Positions 40,926 through 64,000 of a stretch of DNA of 64,000 nucleotides are shown piece after piece. The notes under the pieces are model-generated. The model worked only from the letters and a program-made list of their open reading frames with translations, was not told where the DNA came from and ran no database searches. The stretch is from Gelidibacter sediminis (GTDB lineage: Bacteria > Bacteroidota > Bacteroidia > Flavobacteriales > Flavobacteriaceae), in NCBI RefSeq assembly GCF_004364975.1, contig NZ_SOBW01000008.1, positions 1,114,610 to 1,178,609 of the forward strand. The letters are read 5' to 3'. Numbering within the stretch: the stretch's first letter is position 1; the number at the start of each line of letters is the position of its first letter. A program made the translations under genes and the position numbers.

Positions 40926-41567
40926 TTAATTGGCTATCCCAGAGCCTAAATAAGTACTGTTTGATACTTGGCTACCATCGGCAGTTATAAATGCCATAAA
41001 TAGCTCTACAGTATCTCCTGCGTAGGTTGTTGGTATCGCAACAATTTGAGTTCCTACTGTTCTGTCTGCACCATCTGTTAAAGAAATAGATTCTTTCTTT
41101 GATGGATTGTAAACCAATAACATTGCTTTATCAGTAGTGTTGGCGTTACCTTCAGCAGAGTTATCATCCCAGTTAAAAGTTACCTCTCCAGGTGTTGCAA
41201 GATCTGTAGTAGGGTTCAAAGCAGCTGATAAACCTCCCCTACTTACCAAAGCGGTTGCGTAATCCACCTCAAAGTCTGGTTCGACTCCTGTAATGGCATT
41301 ATTTAACACATAAGACATTGCAGCATTAAATGCTGTTTTCTTCACTGCTAAAAACTTATATCCCTTTTGGATAAATGGTTTAACAGCTTGAATAAATTCT
41401 AAAGTCACAGTAAACTTATTTCTTTGGTTTACTTGACCTATAGTTCTTGGATTGGCTACACTTGAAGGTTTAATTCTGATGTAGTCAATTCCTTTCCAGC
41501 TTCCACCGATAATGTTTCCAACCTTACCGGAAAGCCCTCCTAAAATTCCTTGAGCAATTTTACCCAT
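40926..41567 (-). CDS. DUF6266-family protein
   Basis: This 213-residue protein begins MGKIAQGILGGLSGKVGNII followed by GGSWKGIDYIR, the hallmark of DUF6266. Further family phrases are QVNQRNKFTVTLEFIQ and the C-terminal fibronectin-like half (GEVTFNWDDNS). No signal peptide is present. The function is unknown; the family is widespread in Bacteroidota and often multicopy. Here it sits at the left edge of the accessory region. Confidence 0.85.
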   Translation of the reverse strand: MGKIAQGILGGLSGKVGNIIGGSWKGIDYIRIKPSSVANPRTIGQVNQRNKFTVTLEFIQAVKPFIQKGYKFLAVKKTAFNAAMSYVLNNAITGVEPDFEVDYATALVSRGGLSAALNPTTDLATPGEVTFNWDDNSAEGNANTTDKAMLLVYNPSKKESISLTDGADRTVGTQIVAIPTTYAGDTVELFMAFITADGSQVSNSTYLGSGIAN

Positions 41568-43965: not shown

Positions 43966-45105
43966 TTACCAGTTCCTTCTGCTTTTCATAGTCAATGATT
44001 CCCTATCTACATCTTCCAATAATGTATCTTCCTTTTCAATTAATGGGTCGTACCAATCTGCTTTTTCCTTTGCCCATTGTATCGTATCTTCTATAACTTC
44101 ATTTTGAAATTGAAGTTTTAAATCATTATTCTCTAATTCCTTTATGAAATTTCTTAAATATTCTGCTTTATGCCAACGGGTTGCCATTGAAAGCAACTCC
44201 TTAAATTTTGATAATTCCTGCTCTTTTTGTTTACGTAACTCTTCTTCCTTTTGACGGGTTTTTTCTTGTTTCTCACGCCTAATGGCATTTTCGATTTGTC
44301 GCTCTTTATCTTCTTTGGCCTTTAGTTCTATCCAGACTAAAATATCAGCAAGTTTGTCTTCTAAAACCGTGGTTTTCGTATCTGACCATTCTTTTATAGG
44401 ATATGACCTATCTAATTTTAAACATAAATTACCTGTAGGAACCAAATCAAATTCATCCCAGCTTCTATTTGTTTCTAGTTTTACTCGTCTATTCTTTTCA
44501 GTTAATCTGATATTGTATGTTTGGTCATGTATAACTATTTCTGTGCGATTAGAAGTATTAAAACTATAACCACGTTTTTCTATCACTTTTACCAACGTAT
44601 CCATAAACCTCAAAGCTCTTGGAAATAGACTATCTGATACGCTAATACTTAATACATTGGTATCATCTATTTTCATACTCCAGTTTCTGGATTTGTTTCT
44701 AATTTTGACCGCTTTATGGTATTCTTTGGTCGCAATAGTATATTTATGAGGCTTTGATAATTTATCTGGAACTTTTAATGACAATTCCTTATTTGTTTCG
44801 ATTTCTGTTTTTAGTTTGCTTTTTACTTTGCCTGGTGGATTATATGCTACATGACCATTTTCATCAAGAAATAGGATTATTGTTTTGTCTTTTTCTACAT
44901 CTACTGGGAATATAGTTTTAGAAATTTTTTTATTGTGCTTTATCTTTTGCCAATGACCTGATTGTGGTAGTGGGATATTCTGTTGCTTGCAAATTTTACG
45001 CAAATTATAGGCATCAAAATTTAACTCTTTTGCTATTGTTGTTAGTGGTTTAGACCAAACTAAATCATATAAATCCTTTCGTTTGAGGCCTTTTTTATCT
45101 GACAT
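43966..45105 (-). CDS. Accessory protein with LYDLVWSKP helix-turn-helix N-terminus
   Basis: This 379-residue protein has an N-terminal module RKDLYDLVWSKPLTTIAKEL followed by YNLRKICKQQNIPLPQSGHW. It is a helix-turn-helix-like domain I recall from many accessory loci in Bacteroidota and Proteobacteria. The middle is beta-rich, and residues of about 265-330 form a highly charged coiled coil (EKQEKTRQKEEELRKQKEQE). No catalytic motif is visible. It is the last gene of the leftward defence operon, 9 bp after the preceding stop. A DNA-binding role is inferred. Confidence 0.55.
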   Translation of the reverse strand: MSDKKGLKRKDLYDLVWSKPLTTIAKELNFDAYNLRKICKQQNIPLPQSGHWQKIKHNKKISKTIFPVDVEKDKTIILFLDENGHVAYNPPGKVKSKLKTEIETNKELSLKVPDKLSKPHKYTIATKEYHKAVKIRNKSRNWSMKIDDTNVLSISVSDSLFPRALRFMDTLVKVIEKRGYSFNTSNRTEIVIHDQTYNIRLTEKNRRVKLETNRSWDEFDLVPTGNLCLKLDRSYPIKEWSDTKTTVLEDKLADILVWIELKAKEDKERQIENAIRREKQEKTRQKEEELRKQKEQELSKFKELLSMATRWHKAEYLRNFIKELENNDLKLQFQNEVIEDTIQWAKEKADWYDPLIEKEDTLLEDVDRESLTMKSRRNW

Positions 45106-45114
45106 TTTTAGATA

Positions 45115-45456
45115 TTAAAATGGTAACATATCAAAATAGAGCTTTCCATTTGATTCCTTTATTTTTACATCAATTCGGCTATATTTATGGTAATTATCGT
45201 AGAAAGAGTAATGCTTATAACCTTCGTCTTCCCATTCTGGATTTTCAATTTTTAAATGCAACTTCCCTTTAGATGTTTTATAAGCACATTTAAGCATACT
45301 CGTAAAGAACCTATAAAAATTTAATTTATTAGGAAAGGTTGTCTCGATGTTATTGACTAATAAATGATATAGGAAGATTTTTGGTTTGTTTTGAAGTACG
45401 GCTATAATTAAACTTTTTTTAAGTTTAGTTTTATTTGAAGTTGAATAGAGATACAT
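45115..45456 (-). CDS. Small protein of unknown function in the defence operon
   Basis: This 113-residue protein is basic and rich in aromatic residues (FYRFFTSMLKCAYK, YKHYSFYDNYHKYSR). It has no signal peptide or known motif. It is 3 bp from the stop of the upstream membrane protein gene, so the two are probably co-translated. I do not recognise the family. Confidence 0.55.
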   Translation of the reverse strand: MYLYSTSNKTKLKKSLIIAVLQNKPKIFLYHLLVNNIETTFPNKLNFYRFFTSMLKCAYKTSKGKLHLKIENPEWEDEGYKHYSFYDNYHKYSRIDVKIKESNGKLYFDMLPF

Positions 45457-45459
45457 ATT

Positions 45460-45843
45460 TTAATCCTTATTTTTCTCAAAATTTTGAATAAGTGAGGAAA
45501 CTAAAACTCCACCTGCCGCTCCTGCCAACCATCCCCAGACACCTATTGCTCCGCCCAAACCTGCAATACCAATACCTCCAGTACCGAAAATAACTAAACC
45601 TGTAATTGTGCCTAAAAATGCCCCTATTAATAATTTACCTTTAACTGACCTTTTAGACCATAATACTTTCTTTATTTCTTTAGCTTTTTCTTCAGTAGTA
45701 AGATTTGATTTTTGAATAGATTCAACTTCCTTTAATAACGCTAAAAATTTATCTCTTTGTTTTTTTGAGAGTTTTAAAAGAAAATCAATGCCCTTTTGGA
45801 CTTGAACTGTAATTTCATTGTCACCTTGATTAGATTTTTCCAT
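45460..45843 (-). CDS. Small glycine-zipper membrane protein
   Basis: This 127-residue protein has a charged helical N-terminal half (LLKLSKKQRDKFLALLKEVE). Two Gly-rich membrane segments follow (LLIGAFLGTITGLVIFGTGG and GIAGLGGAIGVWGWLAGAAG). Glycine zippers favour helix packing or pore formation. It sits directly after the helicase gene in the defence operon (17-bp gap), making a membrane effector or anchor conceivable. This is inference from composition and context only. Confidence 0.6.
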   Translation of the reverse strand: MEKSNQGDNEITVQVQKGIDFLLKLSKKQRDKFLALLKEVESIQKSNLTTEEKAKEIKKVLWSKRSVKGKLLIGAFLGTITGLVIFGTGGIGIAGLGGAIGVWGWLAGAAGGVLVSSLIQNFEKNKD

Positions 45844-45860
45844 TTTTATTACGGTATTAA

Positions 45861-48299
45861 TTAGAACAAGTTTGTAACATATTGTGGATATTGCTCTTTA
45901 AAACTCAAAATAGCTTTAGACAACGAGCTATTTGGATTTTGAAATTGAATGTAGCAATTTTCCATACTTCGAGTAATTGCCATTAACACCCAAGTTGCAG
46001 CATACATTTCTCGTCTTTTCTCTGGTGTTAACTGATCAAATAAAGTTTCCAACAAATAATTATCCGCATCATTTTCAAGCGTTTTTTGTTCAAAAAACTC
46101 ATCTAAATTGAAACACATTACAGACCAAGCCTCAATACCGCGACAAGATTCATAGTAAATAGAACGTACAGATAAAGCTCCTGGTGGACTTAATTTCCTT
46201 TTATCAACATTACCCGTTGTATTCCAAAAAACTAAATCTCCTATTGCGACTTTTGCTTTATCAATTAGTACCCATTCTCCTTTTGTTTTATTATTATCCT
46301 TAACAATATTGTCATATTCATTGACTGCTACAGATGTGTCTTCATCTATTTCAATACCATTATTACTACCACTCTCTGCTGCTGTTAAAAGCAGTAACGA
46401 TTCGTAGTTTGTACATCCTTGTCTTTCCCCAATTGTTTTTAGTCTCTTAATTGCTTCAACTTGTTTGTCAGAAGTAAATGAATAATCTATAAATACATTA
46501 CCATGATCATCTGTATCTAATGGTTCAATATTAAGGTCTATTTCATACCAATCTGCTATATGATTTGCAAGAGCTGCAATAGCAGGTTTCATTCTATATG
46601 ATTTACGTTTTTTAGTATATCTGTAAAAATCAATATTTTGGTTTCTTGATACGTGCCAATCACATAATTGAGCATATCTAATTAACTGTTCCTTACCTCC
46701 ATTAGCAATTACAATATTATTACTACCAAAAATGCTATATAAGATATCCCGTTCTAATGGATGGCAATCTTGTGCTTCATCAATATATGCTATTCTACCT
46801 GCTCTAAACCCCCCTAAACCTTTTTTATAACGTGTTTTTAGCTTTTCAAAATTTATCTTACCACTACCATCTTTTTCAAGAATTTGGGGATTTAAGGCCA
46901 TTACATTTTCTAATAAATCATATTTATTAACTACATCCATATCACTTAAAAATGCATCTAAATTAGAAGCTGCTTGAAGGATACGTTCCAATACCTTATG
47001 ATAGTCCTTCAAAAAAACGTTTGAACTTTCAAGATTACCAAGCTTTTGTACTTTATCATTTCTATAAAATTTGAATTGTTTAGCTGTTTCTTCTTTATTT
47101 GGTAAACTTTTTAAAGATTCTTGTAGATATTGAATAAATAAAATAGCTTCTCGTCTTACACCCTCTGAAGTAGTCCATTTACTTTGAACATACATTAAAA
47201 GTTTAGCTAAACTAATATCATATTCTTTAAGACGTATGGCATTAAAATATTGTTGAATCTCAACCCATCTGGAATCTAAAGTCGCTGTTAACTCATTTAT
47301 TCGTTGTTCAGTAAGTAATAAAAGAACCCCTAACTTTTTTGCTACACCATAAAAATATCCGTGAATTGTATATGTAGTTGTTGGTTGTTTTTCTTTTCTT
47401 TCCTCTGGTGATAATCGATTTGTAAAACTTTGAATTTGAGAAGCAATGTCATAAACTAAAACATGATTATAAGTTAAAAACACCCCTTTTCGTCCTTCAA
47501 GACTTAATCTTAACATCCATTTTAGGATATCTGATGATTTACCTGTTCCTGCTTTTCCGTTTACCTCAACTAATTTTTCTCCAATATTGTCATAAGCTTT
47601 AGATGAAGCATCATCTAACTTATTCTGTATACGATCTATTTTCTTTTTAGTGATATATCCATCTCTACTATCTTTTGAGGCTCGCTCAAATATTTGCCTT
47701 ATCTGTACCTCAAAAAGATCATCACTATCAAACCAATTGCTATATCCTGGCCATTTGAAATAATGATTTAATTTTATTACATCTTCAACCTTATCATAAG
47801 TGAATTGGTTATCGATAATTATATTTTTTGAATAATAAGAATGTGATTTATTCTTTATCCAGATAATGGGATGTACAGTGATATGCTTTCTCTCCATTCC
47901 ACAATTACTGCTTAAATAATTGGTTAAACCCCATTTCATTTTATTTGCATTATCTTCAAAATCGATAAATGCACCATCGATATCTACCAAACCACCTTCA
48001 ACAGTAATTTTGGAATTGTAATATTCATTTATTATTGATACAGCAATGATTTGATTTTTGACATAAAATCTATCATCATTAGTTTCTACCCTGTACCAAC
48101 TTTTTTCCTTTTTTGGAATATTCAACAAAACAATGAAGTCTATACTTGTCTGTGAGGATACTGATACCGGGAAATTATTTAATACAATTACTTCTGCCTC
48201 TTTACAGGTTTCATTTAACTTTTCTATAACCGATTCTTTAAAAGTATCGTAATCTAAATGTGCATTGGTACCGTTAATTTTTAAAAAGTTAAATTCCAT
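45861..48299 (-). CDS. Superfamily 1 helicase-like ATPase with NERD-like N-terminus
   Basis: This 812-residue protein has Walker A GKAGTGKS at residues 248-255, Walker B/motif II AYIDEAQDCHP near residue 506, and a motif VI-like MAITRSMENCYI near the C-terminus. This matches UvrD/Rep-type helicases. Residues 1-200 resemble a nuclease-related (NERD) domain (SIDFIVLLNIP), but the expected E-x-K is replaced by SIINEY, so nuclease activity is doubtful. It starts 17 bp after the Argonaute stop, indicating a joint function such as unwinding nucleic acid for, or loading by, the Argonaute. Confidence 0.8.
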   Translation of the reverse strand: MEFNFLKINGTNAHLDYDTFKESVIEKLNETCKEAEVIVLNNFPVSVSSQTSIDFIVLLNIPKKEKSWYRVETNDDRFYVKNQIIAVSIINEYYNSKITVEGGLVDIDGAFIDFEDNANKMKWGLTNYLSSNCGMERKHITVHPIIWIKNKSHSYYSKNIIIDNQFTYDKVEDVIKLNHYFKWPGYSNWFDSDDLFEVQIRQIFERASKDSRDGYITKKKIDRIQNKLDDASSKAYDNIGEKLVEVNGKAGTGKSSDILKWMLRLSLEGRKGVFLTYNHVLVYDIASQIQSFTNRLSPEERKEKQPTTTYTIHGYFYGVAKKLGVLLLLTEQRINELTATLDSRWVEIQQYFNAIRLKEYDISLAKLLMYVQSKWTTSEGVRREAILFIQYLQESLKSLPNKEETAKQFKFYRNDKVQKLGNLESSNVFLKDYHKVLERILQAASNLDAFLSDMDVVNKYDLLENVMALNPQILEKDGSGKINFEKLKTRYKKGLGGFRAGRIAYIDEAQDCHPLERDILYSIFGSNNIVIANGGKEQLIRYAQLCDWHVSRNQNIDFYRYTKKRKSYRMKPAIAALANHIADWYEIDLNIEPLDTDDHGNVFIDYSFTSDKQVEAIKRLKTIGERQGCTNYESLLLLTAAESGSNNGIEIDEDTSVAVNEYDNIVKDNNKTKGEWVLIDKAKVAIGDLVFWNTTGNVDKRKLSPPGALSVRSIYYESCRGIEAWSVMCFNLDEFFEQKTLENDADNYLLETLFDQLTPEKRREMYAATWVLMAITRSMENCYIQFQNPNSSLSKAILSFKEQYPQYVTNLF

Positions 48300-48316
48300 T
48301 TAATAAAGTTTTAGAT

Positions 48317-50404
48317 TTACAAAAACCACAATTTATTTTTAGCTTCTTCTTTAATATCGTTTTGGAAACGTGGTACTAATTGAGCCACCATTTCTGGGTA
48401 TCTAATGGTTATTGGTACGTTTTGAGGTTTTAATGATTTCCAATACAGTCTGCTGAATTGAAAAACTTGGGTGAGCAATTCTGTAATGATGTTATCATCT
48501 TCAAAAGCATCATCATTAGGGCTGCTCATACTTACCTTAATTGGAAATGGGAAACCGTCGGAATCAAAAAAACGTTCTTCTTCAAACCTACCGTTATTGA
48601 ATAGTAAAAATTTACGTTCTCCTAATCTAACAAATGTTCCACTGTAAGGCATTAGATTATTTTCAAAATCGGTATCATAAGCTATGATGTCTTTCGATTC
48701 TGTTTTGTTGATATTTAAGATGTAAATAGGTTTATTCTCCAGATTGAGTTTATGCATTCCTTCTAATATGGGTTGCATTTCTCGTTTACTCATTTCTTTG
48801 TAAAAATGGATGACTATTTTATCGGCTTCGGATTGAGTAAAGAATTTACGGATTGCTGAAATAATACTTCCTGCTAACAAGTCTGTTTCGTTTTTTGAAA
48901 AACAATCGAACTTATTGAAAATACCGTTGTTTTGAAAGCTGAATGCACTTGCTACATAGCGGTGTTTATGATCTTGATTTGTAAATGCACCTACACCGAT
49001 AACCAATTCTTTTTTCTCGGTTACTGCCAGTTTCCAAGGTTTCCCTCCTAATTTGGCGTGAATAGCTAATGAAATGTTATTTAAGTGCCATTGGTAATTG
49101 GTAATATTTCGTTGTAAATCTTCAAAATCAATCGCTTGGGTCATAATACCTTCATCTAAACACAATTCTTTTACCTGATAATAAATGTTTTTAAGCTGCG
49201 GATTGGATTCAAACCTTGTAAATGGACTAATATAAAATGCTAAATAAGCTACTGATGTATCCCATTCTAACTCATTTAATTTCTGTTCTATCTCTGGAAT
49301 TGGATTTTCCTTATTTTCAAATTCAATAAAATGGTTAGGTGCTGAATTTACTGGAATGTCAATAAAGCTTTTTAATCCTTTATAATAATTACCTGTTCCG
49401 TTTTTTAGATAGCCCCATAGCTTTTTAATTGTTGCTTCGTGGTCTTTATGATAAATAAAAAAGAATTTAATGTTTGGATTGGGTGGTCTAAAATATGGTC
49501 TGTATCTGTTTAACTCTAATTTAGGTGTTATACCAGTTTGCTTGTTGCCTTGTGCGTCTTTGCCATATTCCAACAAACCTTTTTCTTTTTCTATATGACC
49601 AATTCTATTTAAAGGTGCATCGATAAATTCCTCACTTCTAAAATCACATATTTGTTTGAAACTATCCGTTAAAAGATGCTCTTTGGTAAAATCCTCTATT
49701 TTTTTGAGGTATTTGATGTATCTGTTTTTTGTTTTTTTAAGTTCAAATGGAATGTTTAAATCTCTTTGCAGCTCTCTGTTAAGAATTGGTAATAGTTCCT
49801 CTAAAATAAGGCTGTTGTAAAAGGTTTCTTTTTGAGGTGTGTCTGTCTCCATTTGAAAATTCACTACTTGATTTCTAAAAATAGCTTTAGTAATCAGATG
49901 TGTATACTCTAATTCTTGAACTGATTTTTTTAGGATTTTAGATGTACCATCGAATGCTACTACCAACTCGGGATGATCTGATACTTCGGCAATTTGTATT
50001 TTTAATGTAAACTTATCGTAATAGTGATAGTCTTTATGATATTCATCTTTACTTAATACCCAAACTTGCCTGTCTTTTAATACGCCGTTTTTACGATTTA
50101 CAATGTTTAGGTTATCAAAATGCTCTTTAATTTGTGCGTTTAAAAACTGCTTGTATAAATTGAGATTGTAATTGTTGCAATCTACTTTTAGTGGTTTAAA
50201 GCCTTCTCTGGGTTTGGTAAAGGTGGTGTATATTTCCTCTGCTTCCTCTAACTCCTCATTGCTAAACACCTCTGTTATTGTACTTGGAAACTTCCTATGG
50301 TGAATGGTATCTACTCCATCTACTTTGTTGAGCGATACATAAAAGGTTAATAGTTTACGTGGCCAATTGAAGTTAAGTATGTTGAATTTTAGGTGTTCTT
50401 GCAT
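48317..50404 (-). CDS. Long prokaryotic Argonaute (PIWI) protein, apparently catalytically inactive
   Basis: This 695-residue protein has a PIWI domain at about residues 380-690. The hallmark NISLAIHAKLGGKPWKL (443-459) precedes the strand ELVIGVGAF. The later strands KIVIHFYKEMSK (529-540), MPYSGTFVRLGERKFLLF and YWKSLKPQNVPITIRYP (654-670) follow the family order. The DEDX tetrad is not recognisable: the first Asp position is Gly (IGVG), and the RDG position reads FYK. The upstream 380 residues would hold N, PAZ-like and MID regions. Inactive Argonautes typically guide binding and trigger partner effectors. It lies 101 bp after the PP2C gene and 17 bp before the helicase gene. Confidence 0.8.
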   Translation of the reverse strand: MQEHLKFNILNFNWPRKLLTFYVSLNKVDGVDTIHHRKFPSTITEVFSNEELEEAEEIYTTFTKPREGFKPLKVDCNNYNLNLYKQFLNAQIKEHFDNLNIVNRKNGVLKDRQVWVLSKDEYHKDYHYYDKFTLKIQIAEVSDHPELVVAFDGTSKILKKSVQELEYTHLITKAIFRNQVVNFQMETDTPQKETFYNSLILEELLPILNRELQRDLNIPFELKKTKNRYIKYLKKIEDFTKEHLLTDSFKQICDFRSEEFIDAPLNRIGHIEKEKGLLEYGKDAQGNKQTGITPKLELNRYRPYFRPPNPNIKFFFIYHKDHEATIKKLWGYLKNGTGNYYKGLKSFIDIPVNSAPNHFIEFENKENPIPEIEQKLNELEWDTSVAYLAFYISPFTRFESNPQLKNIYYQVKELCLDEGIMTQAIDFEDLQRNITNYQWHLNNISLAIHAKLGGKPWKLAVTEKKELVIGVGAFTNQDHKHRYVASAFSFQNNGIFNKFDCFSKNETDLLAGSIISAIRKFFTQSEADKIVIHFYKEMSKREMQPILEGMHKLNLENKPIYILNINKTESKDIIAYDTDFENNLMPYSGTFVRLGERKFLLFNNGRFEEERFFDSDGFPFPIKVSMSSPNDDAFEDDNIITELLTQVFQFSRLYWKSLKPQNVPITIRYPEMVAQLVPRFQNDIKEEAKNKLWFL

Positions 50405-50457
50405 AGGTATTGAGGGGTTTTTTATTATTTACATATAGTTTTATTTAGTTTTTTAAA

Positions 50458-50490
50458 GATTGCCACGTCGCTACGCTTCTCGCAATGACA
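50458..50490. repeat. REP-like short interspersed repeat
   Basis: The sequence ATTGCCACGTCGCTACGCTT, continuing CTCGCAATGACA, matches the widespread GTCATTGCGAG..GCAATC type of repeat, with ATTGC / GCAAT ends. It lies in the 101-bp gap between the PP2C and Argonaute genes. No second copy was seen in the window. Confidence 0.65.
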
Positions 50491-50505
50491 GCTGTTCTAT
50501 TTTTT

Positions 50506-51207
50506 TTAGTTTATCAATATCAAAGAATAGTTATCTTTTGCTGTTTCTTTTAATTTATCATCTAATACAGCTAGAATGTCATCCACATTTTTTTCTGAAT
50601 TTATGACATCTAACAATTGATGGTTGCTTAAAACATCTGTCACTCCATCGGAAGCTAAAATGATATAATCTCCTTGTTCAAAATCTTCAATGCGTTTGTA
50701 ATCAATCTTTGCTTTTTTAATATCATTTTGAATTGCTCTGGTAACAATGTGATTGTACTTTTTTGCACTATTGGCCTCAACAAAGACCTTATTTTCAATT
50801 AATTCATTTTTTAAATTGTGTTCCACAGATTCAAAACCTATTTGTTCATTTTTTATGTGCCAAATTTTTACATCACCTATCCAAAAACAGTGTAAATCTC
50901 CATTATCTTGAATTACACCTCCTAAAGTTGCACCCATATTTGAATCTTGTTTTTTATTTTCTGTTGCCAACGCTCTTGTTACTTCTTCAACAGCTAACTG
51001 GATGCTGCTTTTGTCATAGCTATTCTGAATCTTTAATATTTCATATAGATTATTTACAATAAAATTAGCAGCATATTCTCCGTTCTTATAACCACCCATG
51101 CCGTCTGCTAACAGGAATATCTCTTTATCAAGCCCCATGTTCTTTATAAAGACTACATCTTGGTTAGATTTACGTGCCCCTTTATTTGTAATAAAATTAC
51201 TATTCAT
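50506..51207 (-). CDS. PP2C-family protein phosphatase
   Basis: A protein of about 233 residues from the ATG at 51207, chosen because the PP2C fold begins right after it (NKGARKSNQD). Motifs are LLADGMGGYKNGEYAA, GATLGGVIQDNGDLHCFWIGD, IILASDGVTDVLSN and the final DNYSLILIN. All metal-binding Asp residues of the family are present, so it should be active. It overlaps the HerA-like gene by 8 bp. It is the natural partner to reverse Ser/Thr phosphorylation by the kinase gene of the same operon. Confidence 0.88.
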   Translation of the reverse strand: MNSNFITNKGARKSNQDVVFIKNMGLDKEIFLLADGMGGYKNGEYAANFIVNNLYEILKIQNSYDKSSIQLAVEEVTRALATENKKQDSNMGATLGGVIQDNGDLHCFWIGDVKIWHIKNEQIGFESVEHNLKNELIENKVFVEANSAKKYNHIVTRAIQNDIKKAKIDYKRIEDFEQGDYIILASDGVTDVLSNHQLLDVINSEKNVDDILAVLDDKLKETAKDNYSLILIN

Positions 51208-54200
51208 CTTTTTTAACTGCATTGATTGTTGCTCCACCATGTTTTGTTACTCTTGGTCTTGTTATTATTTTTACAGGTTGATTTGTTACCCTTTTATCGT
51301 TTGCTTTAGAAGCCCATAAAAACCCCTCTCCTGGTTTTAAAATACTCATATCTGCTGGTGTCAATGTTGCCAGTTGTGTAATGGATTTTTGAATATGTTT
51401 TAACCATTGTGGGCTATTAAACTTATGCAATAATACTATTGAGCTTAATTCAATAATTTCATTAGGTAAACTAGGTGGATCTTGACTTGCAATTAATATG
51501 CTCACCCCTTTGTGTCTCATTTCTCTTATGGCCGTAACAATATTTCCAGTCAACTCTTTATTATCCATGTATTTATGAGCTTCATCAAAAACAATAAACT
51601 TATTAAATTGATTTTCTGAACTGTTTGTTGCAGAAAAAATATCTAATGCTGTTACAAATAAGCCTAATGCCTGATCTTTATGGATAAACTCATCTCTCAT
51701 ATCAATAATAATGAGTTTTGATGGCTGTAAATAATTGGCTAAATGATTGACATCCTTTACGTATTTTGAGGCAAACCTAATTCTACGGATAGCTAATGTT
51801 TTATCTCTTTTAGACAAAAGTTCACTATCACTTATTGCTTGATTTAATGTTGCTACATTTAAGTTATTGGTATCAAATAACTCTTCTAAAAGGAAATTGA
51901 TTTCATTAATATAATCTGACGTATTACCCACTGCATTCATTAAAAACTGCCAATCCTTTATTGATAATTCATTAGGATTAAACAATAACGGCGCCACCTC
52001 AACAGATGGAAATTGATTTCTACGTTCTTCCACTTTACGTTCAGGACATAGGATTATGATATCATCTATACTATCCGGCTCTACATTATAAACGTCCTTT
52101 AAAATCCTCAATTCGTTAGGCTGGTCGTTAGGCTGAATCATTGATGTAAACTCTGGTTCGTAATCCATACTCTCACTGTAATGAAATATTACTCCCGCAA
52201 GTGGTGATGGCAACTTATTGACATTACTGAATTGCTTTAATACCATTTCAGTTAAGGTTCCGATGGAATAACTTTTTCCGCCACCTTGTACTCCAAATAG
52301 ACTCATTGTATTAACCCCACTTAAATCAATAGCGATTTTTTTGTTTTGATGCGCTGTTTCACCCAAAATCCCATATTGTGAAGATGGTTTAGAGTTACCT
52401 ATAAATATTTCAAAATTTGGTTCTGAATATGGTTTTTCTGTACTTTTTATTTTACTATCACTAGGTGTAACAATAGGTTCTTGAGGCTCATTCACCTTTT
52501 CTTGTTCTTGAATCGAATCGTTTGACTGAATCGATTTTCCTTCAGGCTTTACATCTACTACTTCAGAATTGTTAGCTTGCTCTTCTTGAGGTTTATTTTC
52601 CGGTTCAATGCGTGATGGTGCTTTTTTAAGCTTTTGAATAAATGTTTTCATTTTATTGTCAACACCTAAAGCTTCTACTAACTCCCTGCCCAAGTCATCT
52701 CCTTCTAATCGAATGGTATTTAAATCGGAATCTGGATCTAAAATATCTTCGATTAAATCTTTGCCTATGGTAAACATGGTTATATCGCCATCAACTATTT
52801 CTTTGAGATGTTTTTTTGATGTAGAAAAATCGTAAATAACACCTACTTTATTGAACTTTAAACTATAGCCTAAATCTAAATCCAATAAGAAGTCGTTATA
52901 ATTATCGTATACCAAATCACTCAAGTAGTTATAACGGTTTGACCTATTTATATAAAAGCCAAGTAATCCACGTAGCTCCTTATTTTTTATTTCCCTATCC
53001 AACCTATCGTTAGAGAGATTGTATTGTGGGTCGAAATGGAATCTTAATACCTCTATAGTGTTTTCAATCTGTTCCTTCATTTTCATTTTCAGGTCTTCAC
53101 GTTCTGTTTCATTAAGCGCCTTCCTGCACTTAATTTCTATAACAGTAATAAGAATTTCTTTTTTCTCTAGGTCTAGAGATACCAACAAACTATCTGCCCT
53201 ACTTTTACTTTCAAAACTATTCTGGTTAAATAAATTTTGATGTAAATCGATAGGTATTAAAATGCCGTTTTCTAAAAATCCTTTCTTTTCCAACACCCTC
53301 TTTGTAAAAGCAGAACCAATTACCTCGAATGCCTGGTTTTTAGATGAGTTGAGTTGTAGTACCAGTGAGCTACTTAAAGCCCTTAAATCTTCCAAAAGGG
53401 ATTTAATTTTTACTTGATGTTCTTCATTGTGAATGTCCAAGTCAAACTCCTTAAAATGAGGTCCTATTAACCCTAGTACCTCTGATGTTGGCCTTGTAGT
53501 AAGATAAGATGATATTCCTGAAACTTCTTCACCAGGTACATAATCTAATAAAAATGGAATATCCTCACCATTTGAGGGTTGGTCATATACCTCTGGCCCC
53601 ATATTCTTATCAAATGTTACCACCCAGTCTGAATAATCATGTAAGTGGGTTATTAACACTTTATCCCTTTCATTCAATACCATTTGTGTTGATGGAATTG
53701 CCTCTGTATATTCTAATTTTAAAGCACAACTTGTAAAGGATTGCATGTTCTCAAATAATTGAATACCCAATTGACCAAGATTACTATAAACTATTGGTAA
53801 GTTATTACCCTTAATAAATCTATTCCATTTAAATCTATTGTCATCGTTCTCAACATTCACCGTATAATCCGTAACAATGCCATTCACATAGAAATTTCTA
53901 GTGTCTAAATCTGGTTTTACCAATTCAATTTTTATTGGAAATGGGCTTATTAAAAAACTAATATGCGCATTGAACTTCAATGGATTCTTTAAATAATCAG
54001 AAATGTTATTTATTGAAAATCTTAATTTAGGAAACAATCTGTTTTTGGATGGCTGCGAAAATGCTTCGGCTTCTTCAGAAATTGTTGATTGTGGATTTAA
54101 TAGGCTTTTAAGTGCATCTCCATGCTCTATGATCTTATCACTATCCTTAAATAATCTTATCTCATATTTTATGGCACTAAATTCATTTTCTTTTTCCAAT

Positions 54201-56629: not shown

Positions 56630-56638
56630 CGGTACTTT

Positions 56639-58195
56639 CTAATGTTGGTTCAATTGGTATCTTGGTCTTACTTTTTGCAGAATATATGCATCACTTAAAT
56701 CGTCGTAAAACCCTATTTGACGTAATTTTTGTTTAAAAGCCTCCACATTTTCCTTGAATGCTAAATGTGTATTTACATTGGCATCTCTAAATCTTGGCTC
56801 GGTAATTCCATTGATTATTAAACCATATCGCTCCCTAATTCTATTCATTAATTCTTCAATAGATAAGCTTCGGGTTACAAAATGGTCGCCTTGACTTTCC
56901 AAAACCATAATCTGCACCAAGGTTTCCAATAAACGTGTTCCCATAACAAACCTTCTGGGATGCTTTTTACTTCTCCCTTGTGCCATAAAACCTCTATCGG
57001 AATTGTTTTGACTTAAATTTGCCAGTAATCTTCTATATTCAATAAACTGTCTCTTTGCTTTACTATTTAATATGATGGCGAGGTACTTATCAAAATAGGT
57101 TTCTTCATATTTAGTAATATCATCAACTAATAATTTATCTTCCTCTTGAAGATTTCTGTATAATGTTGTGTATTTTACTTTGTAATAGGTCTCGCTTTCG
57201 CTGCTCTTAAGTTTAAGTGCAGACAACGCCTTATCTAAATTAGCAGAATTGTCTTTATTCAGTCCAAAAGGTTCTAAAGTCATGTTTATTTTGAATGTGG
57301 CCTCGATATACTTATAAATGGAATTGTAAAGCTTATCAGCATCCTCTATGGCATAAACCGATACTTTGCTCTCAAAATCATCTGTTGTATCAATCACAAT
57401 ATTCCAGTCATCTTCTATTTCAACTGTACCCATTTCAACCATTACTGGTAAAAAATGAATTATTTTTTGGGTATATAAAGACATGTGAAACGATATGATT
57501 GTTTTTAAGTAGTCAACCAAAACACTTCTTGGTATTTCTTGCTTATAGACTAACAATCTTCTAATATCATCACAGAATAATTCGGCTTGTTTCTTTAATA
57601 ATGGTTCAATTCTGTTTAAGGTTTTTTTAGAATCAGGATAGAAATTGGGCTTAATGATTTTTATTATGTTTAACATTCCCAAGCTATCAACATCTAATTC
57701 ATCCAATTTGTTCAGAGTGTCAGTAGTTGCATCCCAGCCTTCACTTAAAAATTTTTTTAGGTCATCTTTAACTTGTGGGTTTGCGCTTAACATCAAATAA
57801 ACTTGATCTGCTGAACTATAATCTCTGGCTACACTCGCATTCCGTAACCGGAAACTTTCAAGATGAATAGGACGTAAAGAAGCTAGTTTTTCCTTATCTA
57901 TTTTCCCTCTGAAAGCCATATTCACAAAGTTATTGCGTATCCAAGGTTCAATTGCCTCCTGATTTTCGGTATAACCAGTAACTAAATTTTCTTTTTCCAA
58001 GACTTTTAAAGCATTGCTCAAATGTTTTATTTCCACATTTTGCTTTCTTCCTGATAATCTCGGTTTTTGACCATTATAACTTAATAGCATAAACAAACTA
58101 ATCAAGGTATAATCAATATTAATCGCCTTTGCATCTACCGTATAAATGAGTTCGTTACGAAATACACTTTCCTCTTTATCTAATTTAATCGCCAT
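56639..58195 (-). CDS. Defence-operon protein of unknown fold (MAD7-like)
   Basis: This 518-residue soluble protein is mostly helical. Its N-terminal part (YTLISLFMLLSYNG, then HLSNALKVLEKENLVTGYTE) could be a winged helix. The C-terminal part (VMGTRLLETLVQIMVLESQ, then RSLSIEELMNRIRERYGL) may be another helical DNA-binding-like unit. No catalytic motif is visible. Position and length fit MAD7 of the methylation-associated defence system. It starts 2 bp after the kinase stop, indicating translational coupling. Confidence 0.55.
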   Translation of the reverse strand: MAIKLDKEESVFRNELIYTVDAKAINIDYTLISLFMLLSYNGQKPRLSGRKQNVEIKHLSNALKVLEKENLVTGYTENQEAIEPWIRNNFVNMAFRGKIDKEKLASLRPIHLESFRLRNASVARDYSSADQVYLMLSANPQVKDDLKKFLSEGWDATTDTLNKLDELDVDSLGMLNIIKIIKPNFYPDSKKTLNRIEPLLKKQAELFCDDIRRLLVYKQEIPRSVLVDYLKTIISFHMSLYTQKIIHFLPVMVEMGTVEIEDDWNIVIDTTDDFESKVSVYAIEDADKLYNSIYKYIEATFKINMTLEPFGLNKDNSANLDKALSALKLKSSESETYYKVKYTTLYRNLQEEDKLLVDDITKYEETYFDKYLAIILNSKAKRQFIEYRRLLANLSQNNSDRGFMAQGRSKKHPRRFVMGTRLLETLVQIMVLESQGDHFVTRSLSIEELMNRIRERYGLIINGITEPRFRDANVNTHLAFKENVEAFKQKLRQIGFYDDLSDAYILQKVRPRYQLNQH

Positions 58196-58197
58196 AC

Positions 58198-61100
58198 TTA
58201 AAAGTTTATTGGTTCGATTACTATTCTATTTTGATTGTCTTTTTTGATACTGAAATAATCGGCATCGTCTCTTGTTACGACCACTTTGTTATAGTTTAAG
58301 TTCTTGAGTAGATTTTTGAAAATAATTAACTCTACAAACTTCCCTCTTATATCGTTGAGTGATGGGCTAAACCCTTGCTGAATGAAATACAACATTTCGT
58401 ATAAATCCAATGATATGGTTAACTTTATATGTGGTTGCCTTTTATGTTTGAACATAAAACTATCTGGCTCGTATTCTAGATATTTCACCAAGTGTTCTGT
58501 ATTGTTTACTTTGAGTTCGAAATCATTAAGATTGAACAGCCTAAAGGATTTGCTAAATGGATCTGTTATCTCTGTAGCCGCCAAAACCAAACTTTTTTGG
58601 TCAATATTGGTGTTATCACAACCTTCATTCAATGCTATGGCTCTGGAAATACTTTGTATGGTTTCTTTGCCTGTACTCTTGTCCTGAAGCAATTGTACAA
58701 ATTTGAATACCGAATGGTACGGCAACCTTAACATAAAGGATGGCATTCCATTGCCTTTTTGGTTTTCACTCTTTATTAAGGTGGATTTCCCTTCATAATA
58801 GTGGTGTCTGATATAGGATTTTTGAACGCTTCTTATGCGCTCTAGAATTTCACTTGTCTTTTCATGAACCGGTAAACGTAATTCTTCATCCTTTACCTTA
58901 TTAAAAAGGTCTATTAAGTCTATTTCCCGTTCTGAAAACTCGATAAATTCCTTGGGTTGATGCTTATCAAAAAATAAGTTTCTATCGGTTTCTGGAATTG
59001 GTACTTCACCAATATCTGTTTCCCTTAACAACTTAATCAAACGGTCTTGGTTGCCTGAATCATCCAAAACTGGATTGGTAATATTAAAGTAATAGTATTG
59101 CCAATAGTTTTCAGGTTTACCCGCCGCTGCTTCATATAACTTATTGATGTCTTCACATTCATGGTCTCTGGTTAAGGTATAAGCTATAAAAGAACGCAGG
59201 TCTCTCATGGTAATATGCAACTCTCTTTTTAAACTCACGGTCCGTAAGAGCCATTCCATTCTGGTGATTACCTCATCTCCTGCTGCAGAATCATTTAAGG
59301 ATTCTACATTGTATTTAATGAAACATTTATTTGCTAGTGAACAGCCTTCACATTTTGTCCATAGTGCTTTATTGGTCAGTTTCTTTACTTGCTTTCGAAA
59401 TAAGCTACCTCCATTTTCGGTGTCTGCCACCACAGAGCGCAGATTTAGATTGATAATCATAACACCTTCTGGCAACTTAAAATGACCTTCATTATAAAAA
59501 TATTGGTCTATTAAATTATAAAGGTCTTTATGTTTTGATGAGGTCATTAAGAAATCTACCAAACGTCCTTCATTAATAGCAATGATGCGTCCCTCTTTGG
59601 CTCGACTGAAATCCCTAATATTTTCAAAAGGTTCAAAAAAAGTTTCCAAGACGTCATTATTGGCATTATCCTCTTGGTCTTGCGACCCATCATAATTGCT
59701 TTCATATGGCATCCCATTTATCTGGAAACGTGCACCATTTTTATGTTTGAAATTTTCAAGATTTTTGACTTCTTTTTCAATCTTTTTTATAAACGCTGTT
59801 TTTCCATCTCCTGCATTACCAGTTATAATCAGTAGCTTATACCTGTTATTAAGAATGTCAGGAATCAGTTCTTGATCTAACATTGAGAAGGAATATGTCC
59901 AATCATCAAACTGATTTGCTGATTGACTTGCTCTAGTTCCGAAGTTTCCTTGTTTAGACTGACTGTACAACGAATTGATGTATTCTACAATGTTAAGGCC
60001 TTCTACATCTATCTTAAAGCGTTTTATTTTGTCCTTATTTTTCTCAACGGTTTCTATTAAACTCTGATAGACCCTTTCTACATTTCCTTCGGTAAAGGTT
60101 TTTGCGCCACCATTCCAAAATATCTCGCTTACAATAGATTTGCTATCCACCTTAATGTTTACTTTTATTTTTTCATCAAGTTTTATAGACGATTTATATT
60201 TTTTTAGGTTATCCTTAAACTTACTCAAAGCAACATCAATGGTATCTTTAAGCACCACAAAACGTTGCATGTTATCTGCCAACTTGATATTACAACCTGG
60301 TTGATAAATCGTTATTTCGGTATGATATAAACGTTCTGTATTTGGTAATTCTGTACCAGCCTCTTCTTTCTCTGCCAACAAATTATCTTCTCCAATAGCC
60401 TCAAGAGCTTCCAGCATTTCCTTTGCCGACTTAAAACGCTCCTCTTTTTTAGTACTGATAGCTTTAGATAGAAAGTCTGCAAAGTTTTGTGAAATGGCTT
60501 CATTTAACTTTTTAGGCTCATTTGATAGCTTATGCATCATAGGTATCTTATGTGGTGCCCATGGGTATTGTTTACATACCAATTGGAACAAAGTGACACC
60601 TAATGAAAACACATCTGCTGATGTATCCCAGTTGACATTATTACTATCAGAAACTAAATCTGGTGCGAGGTATGGATTTGTACCCACAAAATCGGTGTTG
60701 TCTTCTGCAAAAGAAGCCACGTTAAAATCGATTAACACAAAACGTTCTTGATTGTCCCAAATAATATTCTGCGGTTTAATATCGCGATGGAACATGGGTG
60801 GATTTTGTGATTGCATAGACACCAATGCCGACAGGATGTCTGTTGCCAATTGATACACTCTATGCATTGGTAATCTGGCATCGGTACGCACATAGGTACT
60901 TAAATTATCACCATCCAGTAACTCGGTTAAGGTGTAAAATTGCCCTGATGGTGTTGTCCCATTCCAAACAAATCGTACAATATTAGGGTGACTTAACTTG
61001 CTTAATGCTGCATATTCGTCCTTTACGGATGCATCATTTACACTGGTGTTAAACAGTTTCATGGCATATTCCGTCCCTTGAATAGAGTGCTTAACTTTAA

Positions 61101-62667
61101 ATACTTTAGAATAACCTCCTTTACCCAATTCATTATAGATGGTGTAATCACCAATACGGTCGCCTTCTTTTATTTCGTCTAACTCCTTATCAGAAACATC
61201 TGCATCTTCTTTTTTAGAGTCTTGCGTTTCTTTTTTAATTGTACTTTCAACTTCTTGGGACGTTCCTTTTTTAATAATAGCTTCCAATTCCTCTACGCTA
61301 TCAATACGCTGAAACTCATCAACCAAAATGGTTTTATTGCAGATTTCGTCAATCCACTTTGGTAAGGTTGGTTTTACTTTAGATGGCCATTTGTTTTCCG
61401 GTAATCTCCCATTTAGGTTATTCAATTCGTAAGGCGATTTTATAGGTTCTTCTCCTACAAATAACCAATAGGTTAAAATACCAAAAGAATATAAATCGGA
61501 TGCTCTACTGGCTTCTCCTACGGTTAGTTCTAACGCATGATATGGTGTGGCGTTTTGCTCATTTATAGTAGCCTGAACCGTGTAGCCTTCTTCATTGTGA
61601 TAGGTAAAATAGGCTTTACCGAAATTGCCTAACATCGCATAACCACCTCTATAATAAATATTATCTGGATTGATATCACGGTGGAATACATTGTGCTCGT
61701 GAGCTGCTTTTAAGGCTGACGCAATGTTTTTTAAAATATCTATTTTTTCTGAAAAGGTGAATTCGCTTGTTTTTGTTTTTAACTTATTACGTAAGGAATC
61801 TTCCTCTAGAAAATCTGTGATTTCATAAAAGAGATGGTTTTCTTCATCTAATTCATATTGAACATTAGTAATAAAGGGGTTACTCTTGATATGTTCTAAA
61901 GCCTTAAACCCATTTTTGATTTTCAGTTCTCGTTGTTTGAGTTCTTCTGGTGACAAGCCTTTTACCTGAAGCGTATATTCCTTGATACGTTTGCGGATGG
62001 ATGAAGTAACACCTTTGGGTTTGGCAAGATATTCTGTATAATAATTTTCTTGGTCTACAATTTCCAGAATCTCGTGGCTGTAGAGTTCTTTTTTGTCTTC
62101 GGTTTTCTTTTCGCTGAAACGCCCAACTAAATAATCTACAATTTTATCCTGTATATCGGCAATGGAATTTTCATATCTATCGCTTGCTGGATTTGCAATA
62201 AAGTTGATTAAACGTTGGTCTAACTGAAAACTTACTTTACCTGCTTCTTGAACAATATAAGGTTCAATACCATTTGGATACGATAAGGTTACCATATTGA
62301 CTACATAGGCTCTCCCTAACTCATATTCGTATTCTTTGAGTTTAGAGGCTAAAATGGCGGTTTTAATACGCCCTGTTTTTAGCGGATTGGGTTTTTGACG
62401 GTCGTTAACATACCAATAGTTGTCATCGCCTTCTATACGCCCTTTCCAGTCTTTGTTTTCTATGTTGTAAATGGCATGTGGTGTTACCACAATAAGGTCG
62501 TACTCCCAATATTGGGTTTGGTTGTTACGTGGGTTGGTTGCTGCCAGCTCTATATTAGGAATCAAGGTAAAACTATCTGGAAGGTTGACTTCTAGAAAAT
62601 CTATTAAACGCTGTTCGCCTGCATTAACAACAGTCTCGAAATAAGGTGGTTTTATGATTCTTGCCAT
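58198..62667 (-). CDS. NERD / tandem kinase / P-loop protein (MAD6-like Ser/Thr kinase)
   Basis: This 1489-residue protein has four parts. A NERD nuclease-related domain lies at about 1-160, with EYDLIVV and IENKDWKGRI. A first kinase-like domain (about 245-465) has FHRDINPDNI but NFG instead of DFG and no glycine loop. A second kinase (about 505-760) is intact: GKGGYSKV, Lys537 in YAMKLF, FHRDIKPQNI and DFN. A C-terminal region has Walker A TGNAGDGKT at 949-957. This agrees with the kinase MAD6 of methylation-associated defence systems as I recall it. It overlaps the HsdS-like gene by 16 bp. Its targets may include operon partners, with the PP2C reversing the mark. Confidence 0.8.
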   Translation of the reverse strand: MARIIKPPYFETVVNAGEQRLIDFLEVNLPDSFTLIPNIELAATNPRNNQTQYWEYDLIVVTPHAIYNIENKDWKGRIEGDDNYWYVNDRQKPNPLKTGRIKTAILASKLKEYEYELGRAYVVNMVTLSYPNGIEPYIVQEAGKVSFQLDQRLINFIANPASDRYENSIADIQDKIVDYLVGRFSEKKTEDKKELYSHEILEIVDQENYYTEYLAKPKGVTSSIRKRIKEYTLQVKGLSPEELKQRELKIKNGFKALEHIKSNPFITNVQYELDEENHLFYEITDFLEEDSLRNKLKTKTSEFTFSEKIDILKNIASALKAAHEHNVFHRDINPDNIYYRGGYAMLGNFGKAYFTYHNEEGYTVQATINEQNATPYHALELTVGEASRASDLYSFGILTYWLFVGEEPIKSPYELNNLNGRLPENKWPSKVKPTLPKWIDEICNKTILVDEFQRIDSVEELEAIIKKGTSQEVESTIKKETQDSKKEDADVSDKELDEIKEGDRIGDYTIYNELGKGGYSKVFKVKHSIQGTEYAMKLFNTSVNDASVKDEYAALSKLSHPNIVRFVWNGTTPSGQFYTLTELLDGDNLSTYVRTDARLPMHRVYQLATDILSALVSMQSQNPPMFHRDIKPQNIIWDNQERFVLIDFNVASFAEDNTDFVGTNPYLAPDLVSDSNNVNWDTSADVFSLGVTLFQLVCKQYPWAPHKIPMMHKLSNEPKKLNEAISQNFADFLSKAISTKKEERFKSAKEMLEALEAIGEDNLLAEKEEAGTELPNTERLYHTEITIYQPGCNIKLADNMQRFVVLKDTIDVALSKFKDNLKKYKSSIKLDEKIKVNIKVDSKSIVSEIFWNGGAKTFTEGNVERVYQSLIETVEKNKDKIKRFKIDVEGLNIVEYINSLYSQSKQGNFGTRASQSANQFDDWTYSFSMLDQELIPDILNNRYKLLIITGNAGDGKTAFIKKIEKEVKNLENFKHKNGARFQINGMPYESNYDGSQDQEDNANNDVLETFFEPFENIRDFSRAKEGRIIAINEGRLVDFLMTSSKHKDLYNLIDQYFYNEGHFKLPEGVMIINLNLRSVVADTENGGSLFRKQVKKLTNKALWTKCEGCSLANKCFIKYNVESLNDSAAGDEVITRMEWLLRTVSLKRELHITMRDLRSFIAYTLTRDHECEDINKLYEAAAGKPENYWQYYYFNITNPVLDDSGNQDRLIKLLRETDIGEVPIPETDRNLFFDKHQPKEFIEFSEREIDLIDLFNKVKDEELRLPVHEKTSEILERIRSVQKSYIRHHYYEGKSTLIKSENQKGNGMPSFMLRLPYHSVFKFVQLLQDKSTGKETIQSISRAIALNEGCDNTNIDQKSLVLAATEITDPFSKSFRLFNLNDFELKVNNTEHLVKYLEYEPDSFMFKHKRQPHIKLTISLDLYEMLYFIQQGFSPSLNDIRGKFVELIIFKNLLKNLNYNKVVVTRDDADYFSIKKDNQNRIVIEPINF

Positions 62668-64000
62668 TGTTCTATTTCGTTTTCTATTAGGTTGATTGCT
62701 TCAAGTTCTAATTTTAAAGCTTTATCAATTTTTGTTCTGTATTGTTTTACATTCTGATTAATCAAAGCCATTTCATTTTCATTAATACATGGTATTGGTA
62801 TATCATAAAACATTTCTTCTGTAACAAATGGTTGCCCGACTCCAGATTTTCGTTTTCGGATTATCTCATTTCCTGCTTTAGAAGATAAAAAAGCATATAC
62901 ATAAAAAATGTCTTCATCATTTTTTAATTGTATTCTAATAATATTATCAGATGCAATAGTGTCTATTAATTCTTCAAACGGTAAGTAAACTTTTCCAACT
63001 GTATCTTGCCCGACACGACCAGTTAAAATCATATTCTCCTTTATCTTACTGTTATTTTTCACGCTCTTCTTCACTATATAATTACAAGACCTAAATGGAT
63101 TTGAGCTTGATATATCACCATTACTCAAAAAAGGTAATCCTCGTTCTTTAGTTGTATAATTTCTTTTATCCCTTCCTCCTGTGAAAATACTTGTAGCAAA
63201 GTCCTTTAAAAATTTATAATCTCCACTCAATATTTGTCTTTCATAATCATCACCGATAGATAGAAAATAATTTCCTCCTAACCTTAATTCACTTTTTAAC
63301 CTTTGTGAGGAAACAAGTCTATATTTATCACAACTGTCCTTTTTAACAATTTTAGTTTCAAAAACAGATTGAGCTTCTTTCAACAACTTATTAGCTTCTA
63401 CACGTAATTTTGAAGCTTCTACAATGAGGTTGTGAATTTGTTGTTGTTTGGGTTCTTCTGGAAGTAAAACTGGTAACCGTCCTAATTCTTCAGGTGAAAT
63501 TCTTGGAACTACAGCACCATAAATCATGGATTGGATATACTCATTGACAATTGGCGCACTCAAATATGCATATAAAAACCCATAAGGTACTTGGCTCGTT
63601 TCAATTCTAATTATTTCTTGAGAGCCAATGCACCCAGAAAAACTATCATTTACCAAAGTAGTATTACCAACCGTTCCAGCACAACTTACTAATATTTGTT
63701 TATCCCTTAAAGTCATTTCATCAACCCAAGGTGTATATTTAACAGAAATATTTTTAGCAGTATCAAGTGGTTGCGTTTTTACCATATCACTTGCTGTAAT
63801 ATATTGATGAGCAAAATTTTCATTTTCAACAAATACTCTTTTGAAAATTCCACCTTGGTACAATTTATCAGCTAAATCGGCTAGACTTGAATTCGCGATT
63901 CCTTTATCCAATAAATCTGATATCACTTTCTTACCCCTATTTAGATAATAATCAGGCTTGAATACCGTAAGGCCTTCATTGAATCTTGATATTTTTATGT
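62652..64000 (-). CDS. HsdS-like restriction-modification specificity subunit (5' end outside window)
   Basis: The frame is open to the right edge; the GTG at 63926 is internal, since in-frame codons (RFNEGLTVFKPDYYLNRGKK) continue upstream. Two target-recognition halves are seen, each with a specificity pattern (EELGRLPVLLPEEPKQQQIH and EMFYDIPIPCINENEMALIN) followed by a coiled coil. Such subunits give DNA sequence specificity to an adenine methyltransferase, which should be encoded just beyond the edge. Gene order fits MAD5 of the methylation-associated defence system. The 3' end overlaps the kinase start. Confidence 0.82.
   Translation of the reverse strand, partial: IKISRFNEGLTVFKPDYYLNRGKKVISDLLDKGIANSSLADLADKLYQGGIFKRVFVENENFAHQYITASDMVKTQPLDTAKNISVKYTPWVDEMTLRDKQILVSCAGTVGNTTLVNDSFSGCIGSQEIIRIETSQVPYGFLYAYLSAPIVNEYIQSMIYGAVVPRISPEELGRLPVLLPEEPKQQQIHNLIVEASKLRVEANKLLKEAQSVFETKIVKKDSCDKYRLVSSQRLKSELRLGGNYFLSIGDDYERQILSGDYKFLKDFATSIFTGGRDKRNYTTKERGLPFLSNGDISSSNPFRSCNYIVKKSVKNNSKIKENMILTGRVGQDTVGKVYLPFEELIDTIASDNIIRIQLKNDEDIFYVYAFLSSKAGNEIIRKRKSGVGQPFVTEEMFYDIPIPCINENEMALINQNVKQYRTKIDKALKLELEAINLIENEIEQWQES

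Follow-up and report, generated by a model that had tools for sequence, protein, structure and literature searches.

A putative integrative element at mnmE in Gelidibacter sediminis carries a predicted MADS variant next to an apparently catalytically dead long Argonaute

The methylation-associated defense system (MADS) is composed, in its full form, of eight genes that include MAD1, MAD3 and MAD4, and islands of the SGI1 family are characterised by variable cargo. According to the accessible text of PMC8409611, the latter integrate at the 3′ end of trmE/mnmE. Among prokaryotic Argonautes (pAgos), the og_54 (VirE-N) subclade of the long-B group holds long inactive proteins encoded a few genes downstream of a BT4734/VirE-N-type gene, as described in the available part of Song et al. 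2023 (PMC10620215), and in DdmDE, in the accessible portion of PMC12904381, an Argonaute-type protein adjoins a helicase. The locus compared with them here lies in a 64,000-nucleotide stretch of Gelidibacter sediminis (the window; assembly GCF_004364975.1, contig NZ_SOBW01000008.1, positions 1,114,610 to 1,178,609). An earlier reading of window positions 45,861 to 64,000, made from the letters alone (the sequence-only reading), had proposed that a MADS-like core is fused into one operon with PP2C phosphatase, Argonaute and helicase genes. That observation is partly confirmed and its interpretation partly supported: the composite would consist of juxtaposed mobile modules, as one integrative element, which that reading had missed and which ends at about 40742, appears to carry both the MADS and the Argonaute module, and they would be adjacent because both ride on it. 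The reading as a whole, with one element, two separately inherited modules and the functions proposed below, is considered probable. The most interesting result was absent from the sequence-only reading: the seemingly dead Argonaute is apparently a near-constant gene of a family of integrative elements, whatever other cargo they carry.

The element is 33,365 bp long, running from window position 40742 to the equivalent of 74106 at the 3′ end of mnmE, where a tyrosine integrase adjoins mnmE and attachment (att) repeats flank the insertion, the combination by which mnmE elements are defined here. Part of it lies right of the window in L003, the continuation of the same sequence, in which L003:626-2668 corresponds to window-equivalent 64016-66058. 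Handles beginning with G denote genomes and those with L denote loci compared in the analysis, and the labels helix-turn-helix (HTH), integrase and mnmE come from sequence reading and homology among loci rather than from a family search.

40742 to 40756, minus strand: attR, TTGTATTGAAAGTAA, one base shorter than the copies of relatives and located by comparison with their attR
40926 to 41567, minus strand: 213-aa gene, the final element gene in relatives, preceding attR in 7 of the 8 displayed
48317 to 50404, minus strand: long Argonaute, predicted to be catalytically dead; PADLOC pAgo 808.7 bits, Piwi domain above the Pfam cut-off
L003:4688-6442: DUF3987 (DUF3987/PriCT-2), backbone gene
L003:6439-7347: BT4734-like primase, backbone gene
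L003, between the BT4734-like primase and DUF6617: two small HTH-like genes
L003:8085-9032: DUF6617, backbone gene
L003:9032-10126: tyrosine integrase
L003:10716 (window-equivalent 74106): attL, at the 3′ end of mnmE
L003:10716-12125: mnmE

At its 3′ end mnmE has the sequence AATTTTTGTATCGGGAAGTAA. Of the eight relatives displayed, seven have a copy of this repeat shortly beyond their homologue of the 213-aa gene, which we take to be DUF6266-like. Matching by 12-mers returned unconvincing 12-mers and nothing longer, and a pattern allowing three mismatches found no match in the window; attR, with its one-base deletion, came through the relatives. Within the genus, G776 (L203) has no element, and about 6 kb containing three other genes separate its mnmE from a homologue of window gene 38177-39883; G774 and G779 carry other genes after mnmE. 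This anatomy, together with the two modules on the element, is regarded with high confidence. The integration site is that of the SGI1-family islands as given in the accessible text of PMC8409611, a comparison by site and not by proteins, and the backbone here differs in consisting of DUF6617, a BT4734-like primase and DUF3987. No mnmE element carrying a pAgo was found in the literature among the matches listed, subscription papers lying outside the scope. Beyond attR, L133 has a second integrase (L133:20227-22026), which fits the expectation for tandem integration; DUF6617 is the most divergent of the backbone genes.

How regularly does the Argonaute accompany this backbone? A DUF6617 query matched 15 of the 395 genomes in the order panel, all of which were opened; 11 proved to be mnmE elements and all 11 hold the Argonaute (own and G048 among them), the four others (G342, G011, G100 and G267) being weak matches with no mnmE, close integrase or Argonaute in the stretch seen, which contig ends cut in G342 and G100. 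With the integrase as query, 52 of the 395 genomes of the class panel matched, 11 of them at 67% identity or more, and nine of these have the Argonaute. At L204, L207, L208 and L209, where the integrase at mnmE is 49-58% identical, no match to DUF6617, primase, DUF3987 or Argonaute was found in the stretch seen. The PADLOC model PDLC02385 matched 27 of the 395 class genomes, 14 strongly (E <1e-150, own included), and in 11 of these 14 the contig with the Argonaute also has backbone genes upstream of it; in G528 and G772 the backbone sits at mnmE on another contig than the Argonaute, and in G768 the Argonaute is near mnmE on a short contig. In G522, G663, G491 and G524 a more distant integrase accompanies the backbone, which was not observed at mnmE, suggesting that the Argonaute follows the replication module and not the site. 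The remaining 13 matches are weaker and mostly partial, and from them G396 (cut by a contig end) and G672 were opened. A further sample was formed by the best 80 of 336 relatives, obtained by scanning a species collection with an Argonaute alignment and taken with flanks of up to 10 kb. Backbone genes are present in 56 of the 70 loci with at least 9 kb upstream, and DUF3987 lies upstream of the Argonaute in 57 of the 80, at a distance of 0.2 to 9.4 kb; G370, G330, G256 and G007, elements found through DUF6617, match members of this set, such that the two counts are not independent. Argonaute distances correlate with those of DUF3987 (Mantel r 0.82, n=55), with a partial r of 0.34 given mnmE, and the integrase adds nothing given DUF3987 (-0.03). 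DUF6617 follows the Argonaute given DUF3987 with a partial r of 0.66, and is a possible functional partner of it. Outside the cellular genomes, viral contigs gave a single locus (L226), where the stretch seen holds no backbone genes, and plasmids gave 11 distant matches, none with 80% query coverage.

The protein itself had been described as long and inactive-looking, and the alignment agrees, with catalytic residues lost in 39 of 39 aligned sequences. Gly472 stands at the first catalytic Asp position in all 39 and F534 with Y or F at 535 at the second, the loss being judged on two of the catalytic positions. Y408, K412, Q423 and K451, which we take to form the guide 5′-phosphate pocket, are kept in 39 of 39 (aligned with AfPiwi AF1318). 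The AlphaFold2 (AF2) model has a predicted local distance difference test score (pLDDT) of 83.4 and a predicted template-modelling score (pTM) of 0.80, with parts of the PIWI region weaker, and its nearest fold is RsAgo (template-modelling score 0.67 by query length), whose structure was solved with guide RNA and target DNA. As the pocket is kept and the model is closest to RsAgo, RNA-guided DNA binding is likely. The ratio of nonsynonymous to synonymous substitution (dN/dS) is 0.057, 0.054, 0.074 and 0.163 in four pairs, the second of which is nearly saturated (synonymous rate, dS, 1.6). Why, then, would a mobile element keep a dead Argonaute under purifying selection? The og_54 subclade, in the available part of PMC10620215, is of the same long inactive type and has its VirE-N-type gene likewise a few genes upstream; here that gene is integrative-element backbone. 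From the names, og_54 would be the primase family seen here, and the likeness to long-B pAgos is one of fold and residues and not tree-based. Unlike BPAN, BPAS and BPAM, the present family has no fixed downstream effector.

The second module is best regarded as a variant of MADS and not as canonical MADS. Reading in the order AbiEi-AbiEii-MAD2-5-6-7-8-PP2C, it is followed by the seam that separates it from the Argonaute.

L003:3496-4500: AbiEi-like gene
L003:2676-3557: AbiEii-like gene
L003:626-2668 (window-equivalent 64016-66058): MAD2, adenine methyltransferase; 827 bits against a cut-off of 720
62652 to 64000, minus strand, running 13 nt past the window: MAD5, HsdS-like specificity subunit; NF047740, 420.9 against 400 bits
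58198 to 62667, minus strand: MAD6, NERD, tandem kinase and P-loop region; NF047741, 752.1 against 460 bits, with NERD and Pkinase matches
56639 to 58195, minus strand: MAD7; NF047733, 607.3 against 410 bits
51200 to 56629, minus strand: MAD8, HerA-like ATPase; NF047742, 233.2 against 175 bits
50506 to 51240, minus strand: PP2C phosphatase; Pfam PP2C_2, 2.7e-12
50405 to 50505, minus strand: seam between the modules, 101 nt, with a REP-like (repetitive extragenic palindromic) sequence and a TATGTAAA box (50428-50435)

All of the open reading frames (ORFs) that the sequence-only reading listed were found on the minus strand; its HsdS, NERD/tandem kinase, 518-aa protein and HerA-like ATPase are MAD5, MAD6, MAD7 and MAD8, each, like MAD2, above the curated NCBIfam cut-off, and the PP2C and Piwi domains are above those of Pfam. 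The operon continues to the right as it foresaw, with the adenine methyltransferase, MAD2, just beyond the edge and 2 nt from MAD5. Its expectation of MAD1-4 there held for MAD2 but not for the AAA ATPase, the two genes upstream of MAD2 matching AbiEi and AbiEii and no MAD model. MAD1, MAD3 and MAD4 are not at the locus, where no gene separates MAD2 from MAD5, the remaining genome not having been searched for them. MAD2, MAD5, MAD6, MAD7 and MAD8 thus stand in the same order as in MADS, whereas the AAA ATPase and small gene found between MAD2 and MAD5 in the MADS of a Piscinibacter plasmid are missing, an AbiEi/AbiEii-like pair is present upstream and a PP2C is added downstream. MAD7 matches occur in five of the 395 order genomes, own included. 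Ten MADS loci with homologues of MAD2, 5, 6, 7 and 8 were compared (own, G164, G366, G276, G149, four plasmid loci and G1038), leaving out G1066 and G675, as well as G932 and G944, which have distant MAD6/MAD8-like genes only. A PP2C directly follows MAD8 in seven of these ten, in keeping with the kinase/phosphatase pair of the sequence-only reading, and NQD, DGxGG, GD, DG and DN, presumably the motifs of an active PP2C, are kept in all seven. This position, together with a homology block shared with G276, assigns the PP2C to the MADS module in all likelihood; in the literature nothing on a PP2C in MADS was found among the matches listed, a set that does not cover the first description of MADS (Maestri 2024). 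Its addition to the MADS parts list in Bacteroidota would make a kinase/phosphatase switch directly testable.

Comparison with relatives shows that the modules were inherited separately and meet at the 101-nt seam. In blastn comparison with G276, the stretch from AbiEi to PP2C (68040-50588) matches at 91.7-95.3% DNA identity, MAD5 excepted, beginning 150 nt ahead of AbiEi and stopping 82 nt short of the PP2C end, and no further match above 100 nt was found between about 37 kb of G276 and 60 kb of own sequence. With the Lutibacter locus L061, taking pieces above 150 nt, the backbone (73123-68018, 79.8%) and the Argonaute (50421-48300, 88.7%) match and nothing else does, the Argonaute match stopping within 17 nt of the ends of the gene. 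The sequence-only reading had joined the genes by overlaps or very short gaps, and this stands for the run from AbiEi to the 379-aa gene (-62 to +17 nt) but not for the PP2C-Argonaute junction, at 101 nt the widest gap. No terminator or strong fold was found in it, the promoter scan applied to the seam being one without Bacteroidota promoter types. The TATGTAAA box of the window (50428-50435, minus strand) precedes the start of the Argonaute by 31 nt; an exact copy is found within 60 nt upstream of 32 of 73 Argonaute genes and 1 of 1114 other ORFs, a count inflated by close relatives, and at 26-30 nt in 31 of those 32. The REP-like sequence spans about 50455-50490; its pattern precedes the Argonaute at 6 of 73 loci and is found before 2 of 1050 other ORFs. 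Against G276 (L014, L015) MAD5 is replaced (28% amino-acid identity), with MAD7 at 77%, PP2C at 78% and MAD8 at 97%, and MAD7 may be tied to target specificity.

On both sides of the Argonaute the cargo is freely exchanged. The gene directly upstream in the 80 loci is ApeA-like in 10, a 107-aa protein in 10, Abi_2 in 7, and a type IIG restriction-modification (R-M) gene, an HTH gene or a 355-aa gene in 6 each, with others besides. Downstream genes vary too, the commonest next-gene clusters comprising 20, 17 and 12 loci, with resistance-nodulation-division (RND) efflux genes in 50 of the 80 and a homologue of the 213-aa gene in 10. Homologues of MAD6, MAD7, MAD8, PP2C, AbiEi and AbiEii occur in none of the 80 (E 1e-5), so that the proposed recurrence of the Argonaute trio beside MADS cores fails; one locus, L068, has an HsdS matching MAD5 and several have methyltransferases weakly matching MAD2. 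From the MADS side, the Argonaute is beside the core in none of the nine other loci, less than 2 kb being visible past the PP2C in G149 and Phocaeicola. In the window the run extends left of 45861, beyond what the sequence-only reading saw, through three genes separated by gaps of 17, 3 and 9 nt.

45861 to 48299, minus strand: SF1-like (superfamily 1, UvrD-type) helicase, cargo; Pfam UvrD E 0.0096, 16.1 bits against a cut-off of 23
45460 to 45843, minus strand: 127-aa protein rich in Gly, hydrophobic in its C-terminal half by hydropathy, no confident family, likely a membrane protein
45115 to 45456, minus strand: 113-aa protein
43966 to 45105, minus strand: 379-aa protein, cargo; no Pfam match

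The helicase named by the sequence-only reading has the motifs GKAGTGKS and DEAQ by eye, but its UvrD match falls short of the Pfam cut-off. Neither it nor the 127-aa and 113-aa genes have a homologue in the 80 loci, where the 379-aa protein has homologues in five; helicase relatives were absent from viral contigs and limited to two partial matches in plasmids. At the loci examined, genes neighbouring the Argonaute are element cargo or backbone and not pathway partners, and two loose ends left by published work on Argonautes may be explained in this way.

Several observations weigh against the favoured reading of one element with separate modules. In G467 and G431 the close integrase sits at mnmE and the whole assembly lacks an Argonaute of this family, indicating that the Argonaute is not obligatory for the element. 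No backbone gene is found in 14 of the 70 Argonaute loci with 9 kb upstream, some of which long cargo may account for, and in L110, L121, L124 and L128 an opposite-strand gene lies directly upstream. Near-identical backbones (integrase 99%) can carry swapped Argonaute alleles about 52% identical, and 11 of 184 locus pairs with integrases at least 97% identical have Argonautes at most 60% identical, which suggests that the Argonaute also recombines alone and is replaced in place. Argonaute distances correlate with those of the host mnmE (Mantel r 0.80, n=31) much as with DUF3987, and correlation alone cannot therefore separate element from host descent. The PP2C is missing in three of the ten MADS loci (Hymenobacter, G1038 and Piscinibacter), of which G1038 has another gene order and a MAD7 under the cut-off (363 bits). 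Finally, we infer every step of the proposed mechanism. In it, MAD5 would direct the MAD2 methyltransferase such that self DNA is marked, and unmarked DNA would trigger the MAD6-MAD7-MAD8 ATPase machinery, with the MAD6 kinase setting the trigger and the PP2C resetting it. The Argonaute would load a 5′-phosphorylated guide, most likely RNA, bind complementary invading DNA from a phage, plasmid or rival element, and block it or call in whichever effector the element carries, with no link to MADS needed beyond shared transport. This is a tentative scheme that may well prove wrong. An extension of it, in which the Argonaute belongs to the core genes of a widespread element family and serves it as a guide-directed means of excluding rival DNA through interchangeable effectors (R-M enzymes, ApeA, Abi_2 and here MADS or the helicase with the membrane protein), is doubtful.

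The fusion claimed by the sequence-only reading would instead make one composite system, in which MADS marks and senses DNA, the Argonaute guides, the helicase processes the target and the kinase/PP2C switch governs all. The common strand and the short gaps elsewhere favour it, and a functional tie is conceivable given that related Argonautes follow other R-M or abortive-infection genes, in many cases at no more than 50 nt. Yet own is alone among the ten MADS loci in having the Argonaute alongside, MAD6-8 and PP2C are found at none of the 80 Argonaute loci, homology breaks at the PP2C and at the ends of the Argonaute with the widest gap at the junction, and in 6 of 80 loci an HTH gene directly precedes the Argonaute with no defence gene between. 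Linkage counts and homology breaks rule it out as the principal account, and it is very improbable. Could the Argonaute and helicase form a local pair of the DdmDE type, the one finding plasmid DNA and the other unwinding it, with the 127-aa protein as a possible second effector? The gaps from Argonaute to helicase and from helicase to the 127-aa gene are both 17 nt, in L062, L063 and L106 the first or second gene after the Argonaute is a P-loop helicase-like gene of another kind (cluster c45; motif by eye), and L065 has a further P-loop protein immediately after it. The adjacency recalls DdmDE as presented in the accessible portion of PMC12904381; the helicase here, however, is SF1-like, has no nuclease domain detected by Pfam and is not conserved beside the Argonaute, RND efflux genes taking that side in 50 of the 80 loci and homologues of the helicase, 127-aa and 113-aa genes being absent from all 80. 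Such a pair is unlikely. Alternatively, the Argonaute may serve the element itself, by controlling its copies, maintaining or excising it or excluding related elements, instead of acting in general phage defence. Its stable partners are backbone genes with no effector among them, DUF6617 covaries with it beyond the backbone and it stands alone after an HTH gene in six of the 80 loci, but most of its neighbours are cargo for defence or metal resistance, partial Mantel tests easily yield false positives, and other elements have related DUF6617 genes but no Argonaute, making this somewhat unlikely.

Some smaller features concern the MADS genes. The first kinase of MAD6 has NFG where the second has DFN, and may be a pseudokinase. 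The C-terminal part of MAD7 matches SspG of phosphorothioate systems weakly (PADLOC, E 5.5e-8), hinting at a kinship of MADS with Ssp-type modules. In G944 (L225:138-6869), behind a distant MAD8-like gene, lie genes that by eye resemble an ADP-ribosyltransferase and a macrodomain, as in DarTG, and MAD2 of the Phocaeicola plasmid (L213:4423-6434) reads as two pieces.

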